The translations under genes were made by a program, and so were the position numbers. A DNA stretch of 64,000 nucleotides from Verrucomicrobiales bacterium (lineage in GTDB: Bacteria; Verrucomicrobiota; Verrucomicrobiia; Limisphaerales; UBA9464), in contig JAIYBC010000004.1 in assembly GCA_027488845.1 (NCBI GenBank), positions 1-64,000 of the forward strand. The letters are read 5' to 3'. Shown in pieces: positions 1 to 6,608 of the stretch (its first letter is position 1; each line of letters starts with the position of its first letter). Below the pieces are notes generated by a model. That model did no database searches. It was not told the DNA's origin and saw only the letters and a list, made by a program, of their open reading frames with translations.

Positions 1-231
1 GCCGCCGACCGCGCGACGGTGGGCGCCAACCAGGCCTCGCTCGGCATGTACTCGGAGCAGCTCGGCGTGCTGAAGGACAACCTCAGCGCCGCCAACAGCC
101 GCATCAAGGACGTGAACGTGGCCGAGGAGAGCACCCAGTTCTCCCGGTACAACATCCTGGTCCAAGCAGGCACCGCCATGCTGGCCCAGGCCAACGCCAG
201 CCCGCAGTCGGCCCTCCGCCTGCTCGGCTGA
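1..231 (+). CDS. Flagellin, C-terminal fragment (5' end outside window)
   Basis: This is the last 76 codons of a flagellin, the subunit of the flagellar filament. The reading frame is open from base 1, so the start lies outside the window. The residues match the Flagellin_C domain: a helix with NLSAANSRIKDVNVAEEST, then ILVQAGTAMLAQAN, and a terminal SALRLLG directly before the stop, which is where this family normally ends. The C-terminal helix forms the D0 domain in the filament core. The gene lies just upstream of methyltransferase and glycosyltransferase genes, a neighbourhood often seen where flagellin is glycosylated, but that link is an inference. Confidence 0.9.
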   Translation, partial: AADRATVGANQASLGMYSEQLGVLKDNLSAANSRIKDVNVAEESTQFSRYNILVQAGTAMLAQANASPQSALRLLG

Positions 232-289
232 AGAAACCAACCGCTTCCGGCGGCGGAGTCCGAAAGGCCTTCGCCGTCCGGGAGCCGGC

Positions 290-382
290 GATCAGTTCAC
301 GGTAAGGGGTTCCCCGCCCCTCGGCTGCGACGGAAGGCAGGCCGGCCTCCCGAAGGCGGGTCACCGGAACCGCGAACTGATC
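290..382. repeat. Palindromic intergenic repeat, copy 1 (~93 bp)
   Basis: The ends are inverted: 290-303 (GATCAGTTCACGGT) and 369-382 (ACCGCGAACTGATC) pair at 13 of 14 positions. The core at 332-346, GGAAGGCAGGCCGGC, is identical to the core of the second copy at 476-490. Distance from left end to core is 42 in this copy and 43 in the other, so the two are members of one family. Confidence 0.6.
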
Positions 383-432
383 CCCGACTCCCGAAGGGAA
401 CCGACCCGTTCGGACACGACGGTCCCGGAAGC

Positions 433-528
433 GGGGACCAGTCCCCGGTGGCCAAGGCCATCCGACGGCCCAGCAGGAAGGCAGGCCGGCAAAGCCGTAG
501 GAAACCAAGGCACCGGGGATTGGTCCCT
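433..528. repeat. Palindromic intergenic repeat, copy 2 (~96 bp)
   Basis: The ends 433-450 (GGGGACCAGTCCCCGGTG) and 511-528 (CACCGGGGATTGGTCCCT) pair at 16 of 18 positions, and further imperfect complementarity runs inward toward the centre. It shares an identical 15-base core with copy 1. Both copies lie in the same gap between the flagellin and methyltransferase genes. No coding potential is evident. Confidence 0.6.
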
Positions 529-568
529 GCATCCGACCCGATCGCGGAACCGTCCACCGCATCGCGCA

Positions 569-606
569 GGACTTCCCGGGGGAACCGTCCATCCCCCGGG
601 AAGTCC
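569..606. repeat. Perfect 14-bp inverted repeat with 10-nt loop
   Basis: GGACTTCCCGGGGG at 569-582 is exactly complementary to CCCCCGGGAAGTCC at 593-606. No T-run follows closely on either strand, so it is not a textbook Rho-independent terminator, although the transcript would fold strongly. It lies about 100 bp before the methyltransferase start and could be a third dyad element of this gap. The rest of 232-708 holds no gene that I can support. Confidence 0.6.
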
Positions 607-633
607 CATTTGTCTTGGAACCGCCGGGAGATT

Positions 634-708
634 GGATTTGACACACCCACCCTCCCGACCGCTGTGTTTCGCCCGATTTCCAGCCTGCCGGCGTCACTCC
701 ACCTACCA
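634..708 (+). promoter_or_regulatory. Putative promoter/leader of the methyltransferase, duplicated at 1668
   Basis: GGATTTGACACACCC begins exactly 75 bases before the ATG at 709. A near-identical GGATTTGACATACCC begins exactly 75 bases before another ATG at 1743. Each contains a consensus -35 hexamer TTGACA (638-643 here), but no good -10 box is visible 16-18 bases downstream, so the sigma factor or regulator is unknown. Confidence 0.35.
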
Positions 709-1506
709 ATGCCATCCGTTCCGTTCGATGAGGCCGTGCCGTTGCTGATGGAGGAGTTTCGATGGAACGAGTGGTTCCTGGAAACCTACTGGCCCGAGAA
801 CGCGCCCCGCATGGAACTGATCGCCCGGCTGGCGCTCGCCCATTCACCGCGGCCGGAGAACTCGCGACTGCTGGAGGTCGGGTGTGCCAACGGCTATGCC
901 GCTGCCCTGTTCCGCCTCCTCGGATTCCAGGTCGCCGCCGCCGACGCCTACGACGACCGGCGACGTGAGGAACTGTTCCTCAGGCTCGGCATCCCCTACA
1001 CCACCACCAGCCTCAACGACCCGGAGCCGCTTTCGCAGTATCCCGACGCCTCGTTCGACTGCGTTCTCCTGGGCGAGGTGTTCGAACACATCCTGAACAA
1101 CCCGTTGGGCCTGCTGAAGGCGCTGAACCGGATCCTCAAGCCGGGAGGACAACTCGTCCTGACGACGCCCAACCCCTCCACCATAGCCAACTGCATCCGG
1201 GTCCTTCAGGACAACTACGTGCTGTGGGGCAGCAGGGATTTCGCCCGGATGTCGAAGTTCGACGGCTCACGGATCATCGACGAGGGAGGGATCCACTACT
1301 GCGAGTATCCGATGCGGGTCACCTGCGACCTGATGCGGGAGGCGGGGTTCACGATCGGACTGCAACGCTATGTCGCACCCGGGTGTGCACGGACACAATC
1401 CCCCCTGAAGCGCCTCCTGAAGCGGCTCCTGATGGTCACACGACTCGACCGACGACGCCTTCTCAGTCCCGGGTACCTCGTCGAAGGCTTCAAATCGGAA
1501 CACTGA
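709..1506 (+). CDS. Class I SAM-dependent methyltransferase
   Basis: A 265-residue protein that probably transfers a methyl group from S-adenosylmethionine to a sugar or a related acceptor. Motif I LLEVGCANGY is at residues 54-63, an acidic loop follows (VAAADAYDD, about 74-82), then FDCVLLGEVFEHI (about 116-128) and LKPGGQLVLTTPN (about 146-158), the order expected for the Rossmann-type Methyltransf_11/23 fold. I chose the ATG at 709 because the protein similarity begins there and the open frame further upstream runs through the palindromic repeats. The neighbours (flagellin, FkbM methyltransferase, glycosyltransferases) suggest a role in decorating a surface glycan or flagellin. The acceptor cannot be read from the sequence. 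Confidence 0.75.
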   Translation: MPSVPFDEAVPLLMEEFRWNEWFLETYWPENAPRMELIARLALAHSPRPENSRLLEVGCANGYAAALFRLLGFQVAAADAYDDRRREELFLRLGIPYTTTSLNDPEPLSQYPDASFDCVLLGEVFEHILNNPLGLLKALNRILKPGGQLVLTTPNPSTIANCIRVLQDNYVLWGSRDFARMSKFDGSRIIDEGGIHYCEYPMRVTCDLMREAGFTIGLQRYVAPGCARTQSPLKRLLKRLLMVTRLDRRRLLSPGYLVEGFKSEH

Positions 1507-1667
1507 GCGTATCGTTCCATTCCCCGATTTCGGTCGCGGCCAATTCCTGCCGTCCTGTACCCGGGTTCGACTGGAATCGATGACTTGCCGCCAGCCGATG
1601 CAAGGTTTCGCGGAACCGCCCCACCTGCCCTGGGTCGCAGCCCCCCCGCGGATGGCGCGGGCAGATG

Positions 1668-1844
1668 GGATTTGACATACCCCCACAGCCAACCCCTGAT
1701 TTCGTGCAAGTCCGGCCCACGGCCGTGCGCCTTTTCCCGAATATGTCCCTCTTCCCGTTCGACAAGGCCCAGGCGGACCTCACAGGGGGATTCCACGGGA
1801 TCCCCTGCTTCCGGGAGGCCTGCTGGAAGGGAAACACCCGGCGG
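1668..1844 (+). pseudogene. Truncated, decayed duplicate of the methyltransferase leader and 5' end
   Basis: The leader motif and its 75-base distance to an ATG (1743) are the same as at 634-709. The first ~34 codons from 1743 align with those from 709: both have M-x(3)-PFD-x-A, then L, F, F-x-E, W and R at matching spacing. Nucleotide identity is recognisable over the first ~20 codons. The frame then continues without any methyltransferase motif (no glycine-rich motif I) to a stop near 2066, inside the next gene. I read this as a relic of a tandem paralogue. The rest of the 1507-2053 gap shows no gene. Confidence 0.5.
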
Positions 1845-2053
1845 TCGGACCGGAAGCCCCGGCCTGCCCTCGCCCGCCCCGTTGGGACGACGGACTCTTG
1901 CCCGGACAGACGACGCGAGGTCTCATCCTCGAAGGCCGGCTTCCCATCTCGTTTCGTGGGAGTTTCCTTCGGCCGCACGCTCTTGGGAAAGGCGCCCAAA
2001 CCCGGGAAACGCCCTGACGCCGACACACATCAACCGATCCATCCCTCCATTTC

Positions 2054-2941
2054 ATGGGTTCACTGAAGAACGCTCTGAAGCCGGAATACATCTTCCGGCC
2101 GCGTCAGGCCTTGCACCGGCTGCTCCGCAGTGGAGCGCCGCCGGAAACGGCCCAAGTCCGGACCGCGTGGGGACTCCCCATGTCCATACGGCCGAAGGAA
2201 GTGGTCGGGATGGCCTTGTACCATCTCGGTGTCTATGACCTCTCCGAATGCGAACTGATCTGGCGGCTCTCCGACCCAGGGGAGACGGTGATCGACGTCG
2301 GGGCCAATGTCGGGGCTGTCACCGGGTTGTTCGCGGTCCGCGTCGGCCCCGGTGGAACCGTCCACGCCTTCGAGCCTCATCCGACGATCCTCGAGACCCT
2401 CAAACGACAGGTCGACGGCTGGGCATCCCAAAAGGCACGCCTCGGGACGATCCGGATCCATGGATTGGCTGCGTCGGACAAGGACGGCGAGGCCGACCTG
2501 TTCGAGCCTGAGGAATTCTCCACCAACACGGGCATCGCATCGCTGGCCCACTCGGGGAACGGGGGGAGACGTCATCGAATCCAGACCCGGCGGCTCGATT
2601 CCATCTTCCCTGTCGACCGACCTGTGGGGGTCTTCAAGCTCGATGCCGAAGGTCATGAGCCGTCGATCCTTGAGGGATGCGGCGACCTGCTGCAAAAGGG
2701 GACGATCCGTGACATCCTTTTCGAGGAGCATGAGGAGCCCCCGACACCGGCGACCCGTTGGCTCGAGGCCGCCGGATATACGGTTTTCCTGATCGGACGG
2801 AGCTTCGGTGGACCTTTGCTCCTGGGATGCGACCAACGGGACCGCATCCCGGACTGGCTTGCCCCGAACTACCTCGCGACGCGGGATCCGGAACGGGCCA
2901 AGGAACGCTGCCGGGCCCGCGGATGGAAGGTCCTGGGCTGA
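2054..2941 (+). CDS. FkbM family methyltransferase
   Basis: A 295-residue protein with the FkbM-type methyltransferase domain. VIDVGANVG at residues 79-87 is the SAM-binding motif, HAFEPHP (about 104-110) is the characteristic acidic loop, and FKLDAEGHEPSIL (about 195-207) is the C-terminal family signature. The family O-methylates sugars and other metabolites and is common in polysaccharide and flagellin-glycosylation clusters. The ATG at 2054 gives a normal N-terminal extension of about 75 residues. It is encoded between two decayed stretches, so its operon partners may have been lost. The substrate is unknown. Confidence 0.8.
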   Translation: MGSLKNALKPEYIFRPRQALHRLLRSGAPPETAQVRTAWGLPMSIRPKEVVGMALYHLGVYDLSECELIWRLSDPGETVIDVGANVGAVTGLFAVRVGPGGTVHAFEPHPTILETLKRQVDGWASQKARLGTIRIHGLAASDKDGEADLFEPEEFSTNTGIASLAHSGNGGRRHRIQTRRLDSIFPVDRPVGVFKLDAEGHEPSILEGCGDLLQKGTIRDILFEEHEEPPTPATRWLEAAGYTVFLIGRSFGGPLLLGCDQRDRIPDWLAPNYLATRDPERAKERCRARGWKVLG

Positions 2942-4349
2942 ATGGGATGAATGGGCGGGACTCCTTGGTTTCCACCTTGTCGATCGATCGAACCTCGCAG
3001 GAACCAACGGGCGAGCGGGCAATGGCCCAATGTGAAGCCCACCCGCAGCGCCTTGGGCGTCACCACCGGGGCGGGGTTCCGCTGGGGTTCATCTTGGCCT
3101 TCAGGAGCCGATTCGATCGTCTGGAAGAACTGCGAGTCCCGGACACGCGCGACAGGGTGGAACGCCTCGCATTCAACCTACCAAGGAGGTGCGGCACCAA
3201 GCCCGGAGGAGGCCACGGCGAACTCCGTCACCGCACGGCGAAGGAACCCGATCGGTCAGCGGTCACGCAAGGAGACTGGGCGTTGAACGCATGGAAACGT
3301 GACGAAGCGGAATCGGGATCCGAAAATCCCGGGACATCCGCGAAGGTGGCGGATCCGCGGCGACCGGAGGGCGCGCTCCATTGCGGTACCGGCAACCTGT
3401 TCGGTGACATCGAGCCCCAACTCGTGACGCACGCACGAAACCCTCCGAAGTCGGCGGTTAGGGCTGACCGGCACGTGTTGGGATGGAAGGCCGCATTCGC
3501 GTCTGCGATCCGGAAAATCAGGGCCGATACCGAGATCCGAGGCCCCACCCGGTTCTCACGGCCATGGACGCTGCTTGGAAGCCCGCGGTTTGTCGGCCGG
3601 ATTCACAGCCGGCGATCTTCGCGGATTGTGGCGTTCCACTCCGCTTGGACCGATTCGTTGCAGGGCCAGGTCGTCCGGCGCCACCGGATTCCGAAGGCGA
3701 TGTTCCCGCATGCCGGCCTTCAGCGGGATTCGCTGAGGAAGAAATGGGCCTGTCGGACCGACCTCGACGGCGTCGCCGCCAACCGCCGATTCACGGCGGA
3801 ATCGGCGATGGACTGTTGCCTTGGTTCCGCGGTTCCCAGGGTTGTTCCGCCACCGGTGCCCGTGCCCGGGACCAGGGAGAGACTCCGTGCCTCGACGGGT
3901 GCTGCGGACTTGTCCAAATTGATCCTACAGGCCGGGCGAATCACCCGCTGCAAGGGGTTGGAGACCGTGATTCGTTCCCTCTTCAGTCTGCGTTTGCGGA
4001 CCATTTGGGAGTGTCGGATCGCAGGAGCCTCCGCTTCGATCGGCGTCGACACAGCCTTTGGGCTTTCGTTGGTCAAGGGGATGCTCGCCGGCCTGCCCGT
4101 GGTCGGACCCGCCCGCGGTGGCCTCGTGGAAACCTTGCAGCCTGCCGGAGTCGAGATGGTCATTCCGGTGGAACATCGAGGCCTGGGATCGCGCCCCCAC
4201 TGGCAGCTGACGAACGCGGATCAGCGGATCGCTTCGGCGATCCGCGTCCGCGAGGTCGACACCGCGGGACACGAACCGGTCTCGCGGACCGGGCAAAACC
4301 GCGACTGGCGTCGGCTTGTCTCGGAAACCGGCACCATACGGCCTATGGC
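2942..4349 (+). other. 1.4-kb decayed region
   Basis: No intact gene fits here. Long open frames exist in two frames because stops are rare at this GC content, but their translations lack family-like composition except for glycosyltransferase pieces at about 3898-4180. Nothing in 2942-3600 was recognisable in any frame. The simplest reading is a stretch of degenerated genes inside the glycan cluster. Confidence 0.5.
3898..4180 (+). pseudogene. Glycosyltransferase (GT4-like) remnant
   Basis: In one forward frame two typical GT4 segments survive: LILQAGRITRCKGLETVI (about 3913-3966), like the start of the donor-binding domain, and FGLSLVKGMLAGLPVVGPA (about 4057-4113), like the E-x7-E/nucleotide-sugar site region. 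In this remnant the Glu usually found in 'LVEGM' is Lys. The segments are separated by only about 30 codons, where intact enzymes have roughly 100 or more, so an internal deletion is likely. There is no matching N-terminal domain upstream. It is distinct from the intact glycosyltransferase that starts at 4350. Confidence 0.55.
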
Positions 4350-5522
4350 ATGGAACTCCTGATGAAATCCGCCGCCGACATCACGAACGCTGAGCGCCTC
4401 CCCGTTCTGCATCTTGGGGCTGGGGTGATCCACGGCGGCGTCGAGGCCTTCCTGGCTTCGCTGGCCGTCCACAGCCGGAGGACGATTCCTTCCTTCGCCC
4501 TCTGCGCGGAGGGGCGGTTGGCCAACGAGGCGCGGGCCGCAGGTCGCACGGTCCATGTGTTGCCGCACGTCCGGCTTTCCCGTCCCTTGTGGATCCTCCG
4601 GGCCAGAAGGGCGCTGGACGCGGTCCTCGCCACGTCGACGCCGGCCATGGCCCTCATTCACAGCGGTTGGATGCAGGTGCTGTTTGGACCGGTGCTGAGC
4701 CGAAGGCGAATCCCGACCGCAACCTGGATCCACGGGATCGCCACGAGCCAACCATGGCTGGAATGGCTCGCCCGACGACACCGCCCGGTCCGCATCTTCA
4801 CCGCAAGCCACTTCATGGCAGAGCAAACCGCCGGCTGGTATCCCGGCACACCGCGCTCCGTGGTGCACATCCCGGTCGCAGCTCCTGACAGGATCGGTCC
4901 GGCGGATCGCCTCGCCTTGAGGAGATCGCTGGACACGGGGGCCGAAGAGGTCGTGGTGGTGGTTTCCTGCCGTTTCGAGCCGTGGAAGGGACACGACATC
5001 CTGTTCCGCGCCCTGGGAATCCTTGGAAAGGTACCCGGATGGAACCTTTGGGTGGCTGGCGGGGCCCAGGAGGACCATGAGATGCGGCGTCTGGAATCCC
5101 TTCGCGAACTCGGGCGGGATTTGGGAATCGGGGATCGCATCCGGTTCCTCGGCCAAAGAACGGACATCCCCACGGTGCTGCAGGCGGCCGACATCCACTG
5201 CCAACCGAACTCGGGACCGGAACCGTTCGGAATCGCGTTCATCGAGGCTCTCTATGCCGGAATTCCCGTAGTCTCCACGTCCATCGGAGGGGCGAGGGAG
5301 ATCGTGGACGGATCGTGCGGGGTGCTGGTTCCGACATCCGATCCCCAGGCCCTGGCTCTTGCGATCGGAGATCTGATCCGCGATCCCGCAAGGCGCAAGT
5401 CGCTGGGGGAAGCCGGCCGTCGCAGGGCCTTCAATCTCTGTGATCCGCCCCGCCAGGTGGCCCGACTCGAGGAAATCCTTTGCGGCTCAGTACCCGGAGG
5501 ACATGGAACGCCGCCACCCTGA
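4350..5522 (+). CDS. Glycosyltransferase family 4 protein
   Basis: A 390-residue GT-B enzyme predicted to transfer a sugar from a nucleotide donor to a growing surface glycan. The N-terminal acceptor domain starts with LHLGAGVIHGGVEAFL, a typical first strand and glycine-rich loop. The C-terminal donor domain has VSCRFEPWKGHD near residue 207 and EPFGIAFIEALYAGIPVVS from about residue 291, which contains the E-x7-E-type nucleotide-sugar site. ATGs at 4350 and 4362 are both possible. The frame is open far upstream, but that part translates to non-protein-like sequence in the decayed region. It converges with the next gene and their 3' ends overlap by 36 bases. Confidence 0.8.
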   Translation: MELLMKSAADITNAERLPVLHLGAGVIHGGVEAFLASLAVHSRRTIPSFALCAEGRLANEARAAGRTVHVLPHVRLSRPLWILRARRALDAVLATSTPAMALIHSGWMQVLFGPVLSRRRIPTATWIHGIATSQPWLEWLARRHRPVRIFTASHFMAEQTAGWYPGTPRSVVHIPVAAPDRIGPADRLALRRSLDTGAEEVVVVVSCRFEPWKGHDILFRALGILGKVPGWNLWVAGGAQEDHEMRRLESLRELGRDLGIGDRIRFLGQRTDIPTVLQAADIHCQPNSGPEPFGIAFIEALYAGIPVVSTSIGGAREIVDGSCGVLVPTSDPQALALAIGDLIRDPARRKSLGEAGRRRAFNLCDPPRQVARLEEILCGSVPGGHGTPPP

Positions 5523-6608
5523 GATCTCGGCGACCAATCGGCTCCACTGTTCGGAAAGGATTCCGTAGGAACAGAGCCGTTCGGCTCGCAGGGGAAGGTC
5601 GGATGCCAGACGCCGCAGCTCTTCTGAAGCCATGACTTCCCGTATCCTGCGGGCCAGACGCGCCGGATAGCCGCGGTCCACTTCACCCTGATAGTCGACC
5701 AACATCGGTTCCGGCAGCAGGATCTCCGCGTCCCCCACCCGGCTCGCGAGGACGAAACATCCCGCGGCCATGTACTCGGGAAGCTTGCCCGTGGTCCGGA
5801 CTCGCCCCGGAAGGTTGTTGGTCTGAGTGGAAAGGGCCACATCCAAAAGCCGCAGATAGCGGGGAACGTCGTCGTAGGGAATCCGCCCGGTGAACAGGAC
5901 GCGATCCTCGACCCCCAAGACCCGGGCCCTGGACTTCAGCCAAGGCAAGCCGGTGCCATCTCCGATGACGAGGGCGGTCACCGGCTGGTCCTTCAGCGAG
6001 ACCATGGCCTCCAGGAGATCCCAGCCATAGCAGATCCCGAGACGGGGACTCATCACGGTCGATCCCATCAACCCAGCCACGAAGCGTCCTTCGAGTCCGA
6101 GTTTCCGTCGGAGGGAATCCACCGATTCCGGAGAGACCTTCTGCTGCTCGGAATATCCATCGCGGATCACCTCGACCCGGGAACAGCCTTGTGAGGCCAG
6201 AAGGAGGCGATGTCCCGAGCCCCGTACGACGACCGCGGCGGCGGTACGTTGGGAAAGCCGTTCGAAGGTCCAGAGAAGTGGCAGCTTCCAGCCTGCGCCG
6301 ATCCCGGAGGCCTTGGCCATGGCATGCACCGCATCACCCGTGTCGAGGATGAACGGCAACCCCCGTGTCCAACGCCAAAGAGGCGCCGAAATGGCACCAG
6401 GGGCAGCGGTATTGAGGACATAGGCGACGTCCGGAGGAAATTCCCCGAGGTCCTTGGACCAAGACTTCCAAGTGGCTGCGATGCCACCGGAACGGGAGAG
6501 GATCCTCAGGCGCTCCGGAGGATGCCGGCGCGTCAAGCCGCGGACCCGGACCATTTCAATGCTCGACGGACCTCCGTGGACAAGGACCGTAACCTTGGGA
6601 GGGTTCAT
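5487..6608 (-). CDS. Glycosyltransferase (GT4/GT1 superfamily)
   Basis: A 373-residue GT-B type glycosyltransferase. Visible blocks are LVHGGPSSIEMVR at the N-terminus, a possible donor-domain start near GLMGSTVMSPRLG, GVEDRVLFTGRIPYDDVPRYL around residue 240, and GKLPEYMAAGCFVLAS near 273, which corresponds to the EAMA-G-PVV region of GT4 enzymes. I chose the ATG at 6608 because it overlaps the stop of the upstream gene (ATGA), implying translational coupling. Together with the next two reverse-strand genes it forms a polymerase-glycosyltransferase-glycosyltransferase unit. The sugar and the linkage cannot be deduced. Confidence 0.75.
   Translation of the reverse strand: MNPPKVTVLVHGGPSSIEMVRVRGLTRRHPPERLRILSRSGGIAATWKSWSKDLGEFPPDVAYVLNTAAPGAISAPLWRWTRGLPFILDTGDAVHAMAKASGIGAGWKLPLLWTFERLSQRTAAAVVVRGSGHRLLLASQGCSRVEVIRDGYSEQQKVSPESVDSLRRKLGLEGRFVAGLMGSTVMSPRLGICYGWDLLEAMVSLKDQPVTALVIGDGTGLPWLKSRARVLGVEDRVLFTGRIPYDDVPRYLRLLDVALSTQTNNLPGRVRTTGKLPEYMAAGCFVLASRVGDAEILLPEPMLVDYQGEVDRGYPARLARRIREVMASEELRRLASDLPLRAERLCSYGILSEQWSRLVAEISGWRRSMSSGY

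Follow-up and report, generated by a model that had tools for sequence, protein, structure and literature searches.

A flagellin-adjacent methyltransferase gene and its probable long-dead tandem copy in an uncultured Verrucomicrobiota lineage

Background

Islands of genes for flagellin glycosylation and methylation are known from Enterobacteriaceae (PMC4875605) and Geobacillus (PMC5109656). As far as the main text of these two reports goes, the islands place glycosyltransferases and SAM-dependent or FkbM-family methyltransferases beside flagellin, their content varies between strains, and an FkbM gene found in one strain can be absent from a close relative (PMC4875605, PMC5109656). The locus described here resembles these islands, since glycosyl- and methyltransferase genes stand beside flagellin here too. 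It differs from the published islands in that one of its methyltransferases is accompanied by a dead tandem copy, and one of its glycosyltransferases by a probable dead relative on the upstream side; the word "pseudogene" is absent from the main text of both reports, and no like case was noticed in the literature searched, at the level of abstract openings. In such a variable locus, a dead tandem copy looks like an expected by-product of ordinary gene turnover. The locus illustrates on a small scale how genes of a flagellin-adjacent glycan locus are gained and die in an uncultured lineage, its relatives standing at several stages of this birth-and-death turnover. It may also be a case of a dead gene's promoter inherited by its neighbour; the general picture is unchanged by it.

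Results and discussion

Organization of the locus

The window, that is, the whole stretch of 64,000 nucleotides analysed, is the start (from base 1) of a 170,602-base contig belonging to a genome of 5.39 Mb. Its features are listed in Table 1. Further downstream come a GT4-type glycosyltransferase gene ending at 5522 and two more glycosyltransferase genes on the minus strand, followed by genes for a protein whose Wzy_C match stays below threshold (22.8 bits, cut-off 31.7) and for a TIG-domain protein. This gene content suggests a role in modifying flagellin or some surface glycan, and the weak Wzy_C match also allows a surface-polysaccharide locus.

Table 1 Features at the flagellin end of the window
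Feature	Position	Strand	Evidence
3' end of flagellin gene	1..231	+	Pfam Flagellin_C PF00700, E 1.8e-19; contig starts inside gene
15-bp perfect hairpin, probable flagellin terminator	569..606	+	Inverted repeat 100%; also predicted in alignment with two relatives
Leader 1, core GGATTTGACACACCC at 634-648 (has TTGACA), then poorly conserved spacer	622..708	+	Copy comparison
Copy 1, intact 265-aa class I SAM-dependent methyltransferase	709..1506	+	Methyltransf_23 E 5e-21, Methyltransf_11 E 5.5e-13
Leader 2, same core, GGATTTGACATACCC at 1668-1682	1656..1742	+	Comparison of window with L031
Copy 2 block A, decayed methyltransferase codons 1-50	1743..1892	+	86/150 nt identical to copy 1
Copy 2 block B, in-frame remnant, residues ~83-122	1893..1991	+	L031 version; window version weaker
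Intact FkbM-family methyltransferase gene, behind copy 2	2054..2941	+	PF05050 E 7.1e-14; TIGR01444 above cut-off

Two relatives were used for comparison. The first, L031 (JAIXRN010000048.1, 5481 bases), has the gene order of the window, and its FkbM and glycosyltransferase genes are 96% identical to those of the window. This contig is filed under a Rubrivivax bin, a label that is probably wrong; its host is assumed from sequence. The second, G013 (JAIXUV010000029.1, Verrucomicrobiales bacterium), belongs to the same genus as the window and has an orthologue of copy 1 that is 84% identical and free of stops.

A repeated leader and gene start behind flagellin

Comparison of the window with itself along ungapped diagonals reveals a direct repeat of ~620-860 and ~1654-1894 at a constant offset of 1034 nt. 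With a scoring tuned to ~55% identity, the diagonal at this offset (523-870 against 1557-1904) reaches 42.5 and ranks first among all direct diagonals of the 64-kb window; the runner-up (39.0) lies in a repetitive region at ~62-63 kb, and the top inverted diagonal, taken as control, scores 23.2. Under a stricter score the same diagonal ranks fourth. In blocks of 20 nt the similarity between the copies begins at ~620 and ends at ~860, beyond which there is no ungapped match. Codons 1-50 are 57% identical at the nucleotide level, far from random in-frame 150-nt pairs drawn from three neighbouring genes, which share 43.3 positions on average (sd 5.6, maximum 64, n = 5000). Both leaders lie at the same distance from their start codon, GGATTTGACACACCC at 634 and GGATTTGACATACCC at 1668 each preceding its ATG (709 and 1743) by 75 nt. 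The duplicated leader and gene start that an earlier note had read from the letters, and for which it had proposed a dot-plot as a check, are confirmed by these comparisons. The ~34 aligned codons that it described after each ATG are also real, but their extent has to be revised to ~50 codons plus a further in-frame block corresponding to residues ~83-122.

This further block is clearest in L031, where copy 2 from aa 52 onwards scores 48 against the copy 1 protein, a value equalled by none of 1000 shuffles. The tail of the window version alone gives 40 as protein (shuffle maximum 48) and 15 as DNA (shuffle maximum 19). The whole copy 2 proteins score 56 (window; shuffle maximum 48) and 52 (L031; shuffle maximum 45) against copy 1, and the window copy 2 scores 45 against the G013 protein, equalled or exceeded by 1 of 1000 shuffles (maximum 45 in 500 others). 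The two copies are homologous, and it is very probable that a methyltransferase gene was duplicated in tandem, together with its own leader, behind the flagellin gene, that the downstream copy is long dead and that the genes of the cassette have been turning over.

Decay of the downstream copy

Copy 2 would have died long ago, leaving a remnant devoid of the SAM-binding part and of the 3' half. Two deletions separate it from copy 1, one between blocks A and B, which removed the motif I region, and one inside block B; in the best local alignments residues ~54-75 are gapped and nothing is aligned past ~122. Neither the window version nor that of L031 has a Pfam match. No stop or frameshift was found in copy 2, whose frame runs uninterrupted as far as 2066 in the window and ends at the corresponding stop in L031, and the two bodies differ by no indel over 311 nt. 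The function of copy 2 was lost through deletions that kept the frame.

Copy 2 shows no constraint. Relative to copy 1, it keeps 31, 29 and 26 of 50 nucleotides at first, second and third codon positions, a nearly flat pattern, whereas copy 1 and its G013 orthologue share 41, 47 and 32 of 50, as a live gene should. Between the window and L031, the differences in copy 2 are distributed 10/14/8 over the codon positions (two stretches summed), and pN/pS is 2.08 over 309 nt (27.5 nonsynonymous and 4.5 synonymous differences, from one sequence pair). The corresponding values are 0.13 for FkbM, 0.25 for the glycosyltransferase and 0.67 for copy 1, which is broken in L031. The codon-position patterns and pN/pS therefore indicate decay over most of the history of copy 2.

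A possible objection is that the methyltransferase start gave rise to a short gene, 107 codons long, and that copy 2 is functional in this form. The frame that is open in both the window and L031, the shared stop and the lack of indels are what such a gene would show, but the spread of changes over codon positions, the pN/pS of 2.08 and the lack of a Pfam match in either version speak against it, and open frames are common at such GC (12 kb hold 72 ORFs of 60 aa or more). We consider this very unlikely. The open frame is not decisive either, because 32 substitutions at 65% GC would leave the frame free of new stops with a probability of ~0.35. Frame disruption is usual in pseudogenes, although it is not required. 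Copy 2 is homologous to a functional neighbour, has lost parts needed for function and shows no purifying selection on its frame. Bacterial pseudogenes that follow tandem duplication typically have truncations, internal deletions and no remaining codon-position bias; copy 2 resembles them in all three respects. Unlike them, it is old (43% diverged over codons 1-50) and yet persists, with a leader less changed than its body. The proposal that copy 2 is a decayed paralogue holds: both the codon-position bias and the SAM-binding part are gone.

Gene turnover among relatives

The upstream copy has met different fates, being intact in G013 and in the genome of the window and broken in L031. In the latter it is interrupted by two in-frame stops, one of them at codon 21, and carries deletions of 6 and 81 nt and a 1-nt insertion. 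Its start has also changed from ATG to TTG, a triplet that can still serve as a start codon. Copy 2 is present in L031 in the same reduced form as in the window. In G013 no copy 2 was found, the DNA behind the methyltransferase scoring 12 against window positions 1507-2060 (shuffle maximum 15). The intact second copy that was to be sought in relatives was found in neither of the two.

In G013, flagellin is followed by a related leader, the methyltransferase, another FkbM gene, a 293-aa ORF and a further glycosyltransferase, and then by orthologues (57-88% identical) of the three glycosyltransferase genes of the window and of its Wzy-like and TIG genes. By comparison with the window, the flanks are therefore common and the middle differs. 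Among 19 genomes of the genus, G013 and the genome of the window are the only two with the methyltransferase at E 1e-30; more distant homologues occur in another genome, G029 (39%), and in a Gemmataceae contig (54%). In six other genus members, which supply six of 11 stretches compared, the next long same-strand ORF after flagellin is phosphoglycerate kinase (6/6). A search with ten island proteins (E 1e-8) gave no match in any of the 11 stretches, some of which are short. We infer a flagellin-adjacent surface-glycan or flagellin-glycosylation cassette of an uncultured Verrucomicrobiota lineage, in which methyltransferase and glycosyltransferase genes would turn over.

The start of L031, the start of one G013 contig (C209) and the end of another (C229) carry the same 119 bases found just after flagellin. 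Such shared ends are as expected where an assembly graph forks because strains have the same flagellin but different islands behind it.

The distance of copy 2 from copy 1 (86/150 identical) is close to its distance from the G013 gene (84/150), and the duplication therefore dates from around the split from G013 or from before it. At the 30 sites where copy 1 and the G013 gene differ, copy 2 follows copy 1 at 12, G013 at 10 and neither at 8; the same grouping with L031 added (n = 23) gives 10, 7 and 6.

The earlier note had suggested that copies are gained and lost here as in antigenic or glycan variation. The copies and the neighbouring glycan genes do differ between relatives, so the gain and loss part of this suggestion stands, but switching of the antigenic type is not supported. 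An expressed gene accompanied by a silent donor cassette, with variation arising by recombination, would agree with tandem copies that have a common 5' part and adjoin flagellin in a locus that differs between relatives. Nevertheless, copy 2 is no usable donor because it is only 57% identical to copy 1, and it carries large deletions, where a silent copy should be nearly identical. Over codons 1-50, moreover, the two versions of copy 2 agree at 134 of 150 positions and match the copy 1 versions at just 80-86. Switching by recombination is thus extremely improbable, and turnover of a duplicated gene remains the preferred interpretation.

Conservation of the leaders

Between the two copies, the leader core (622-648) is identical at 23 of 27 positions and the spacer (649-708) at 23 of 60; the core is better kept than the remainder (23/27 against 109/210, p = 0.0009). 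The sequence TTTGACA is invariant in the five aligned leaders (5/5), being kept in G013 and L031. Between the window and L031, substitutions amount to 3/87 in leader 2, 32/311 in the copy 2 body, 11/87 in leader 1 and 19/149 in the gap 1507-1655. Leader 2 differs from the other three pooled (3/87 against 62/547, Fisher p = 0.022, from one sequence pair), and is borderline against the copy 2 body alone (p = 0.053) or leader 1 alone (p = 0.048). These tests count substitutions only; in L031 there is also one 1-nt insertion in either leader and one in the gap, and none in the copy 2 body. The stretch 232-621 on the flagellin side was excluded from the pool because it is structured.

TTGACA is the -35 consensus of sigma-70-type promoters. 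Both leaders resemble such promoters in containing it exactly, at 638 and 1672, and differ from them in that no -10 hexamer was found at 16-18 nt at the threshold of a consensus scan; CTGnnT, a weak element read by eye, lies at 17-18 nt in four of the five leaders. A similar sequence, TTTGACACCCAC, precedes another gene of this genome, with TTGACA 37 nt before the ATG and TAGCCT after a 17-nt spacer. On the strength of this sequence and of the invariance of TTTGACA, we interpret the core as the -35 region of a promoter. The earlier idea of a functional leader is supported to the extent that the leader looks constrained, most simply as a promoter, although no -10 element was recognised.

Two scenarios may explain the slow change of leader 2. 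Selection may have kept it because it serves the FkbM gene as promoter and as a long 5' leader; this gene is itself constrained and begins 311 nt further on, and the dead body between them would be a transcribed spacer. Retention for FkbM would account for a leader that has aged less than the adjoining body, and we give this proposal not far short of an even chance. Alternatively, leader 2 may be conserved merely by chance or shared ancestry with nothing depending on it, which would affect the promoter proposal and leave the duplication and decay as they are. The comparison relies on a single informative sequence pair with p values of 0.02 to 0.05, the -10 element is missing, and other stretches have also changed little, such as 232-621 (13/273 substitutions, nearly as slow as leader 2) and 1807-1836 within the dead copy (1/30). 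Yet chance accounts poorly for a core that is better kept than the coding part between two old copies and for the invariance of TTTGACA. Conservation by chance is accordingly a real possibility, if somewhat on the doubtful side, and a retained promoter is the reading that we tentatively adopt for leader 2.

The leader has also been considered as a regulatory motif common to glycan genes throughout the genome. Two exact copies occur at this locus, and the leader of G013, which precedes the same gene, matches a somewhat broader pattern at 1 mismatch. The motif alone is weak evidence, as ~2 chance matches are expected in the window at 3 mismatches. At no more than 1 mismatch, the whole genome (5.39 Mb) contains the two leader sites and no others (reversed control 0), so that, in window and genome, the pattern expected in front of other glycan genes was met at this locus only. 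A wider pattern gives 31 matches in 19 genus genomes, this locus included, against 13 in the reversed control; some identical 15-mers recur in up to four genomes, and the sole additional site in this genome precedes another gene. The pattern TTTGACAYNCCC was found at 6 of 34 loci, all from the window's own genome or L031. In a 458,967-base sample of the genome, TTGACA is neither avoided nor enriched, with 18 sites on both strands (88th of 180 letter permutations, median 20). A genome-wide motif was rejected on these pattern searches and this sample, and we judge it most improbable.

Additional observations on the intergenic DNA and downstream genes

A probable second dead gene, which would be a degenerate relative of the glycosyltransferase after it, lies at 3376-4230. 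It is 22% identical to a G013 glycosyltransferase over 334 aa (E 1.2e-11), and its Pfam Glycos_transf_1 score of 21.6 bits is under the cut-off of 26.4; L031 lacks 1233 bases here. Its decay is not proven, because its frame is open. The 3' ends of two glycosyltransferase frames, which lie on opposite strands, overlap by 36 bases (5487-5522).

The RNA of the intergenic stretch between flagellin and the methyltransferase is predicted to form several very long hairpins in a row (window z = -7.4, G013 z = -7.5). The corresponding stretches are 232-633 in the window, 62-392 in the locus L026 and 62-351 in L031, from which 116 nt are missing here. Local folds at 649-720, 1683-1754 and 1990-2060 are no more stable than shuffles (z = 0.38, -0.91 and 0.38). 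Rfam gave nothing at gathering score for window positions 1-6000, and no second copy of the hairpin stretch was found in 459 kb of this genome. In an alignment of three sequences, changes on both sides preserve the pairing at 4 of the 88 predicted pairs, many pairs are invariant, and the covariation term is slightly unfavourable (+1.57). The hairpin stretch could be a structured 3' UTR of flagellin.
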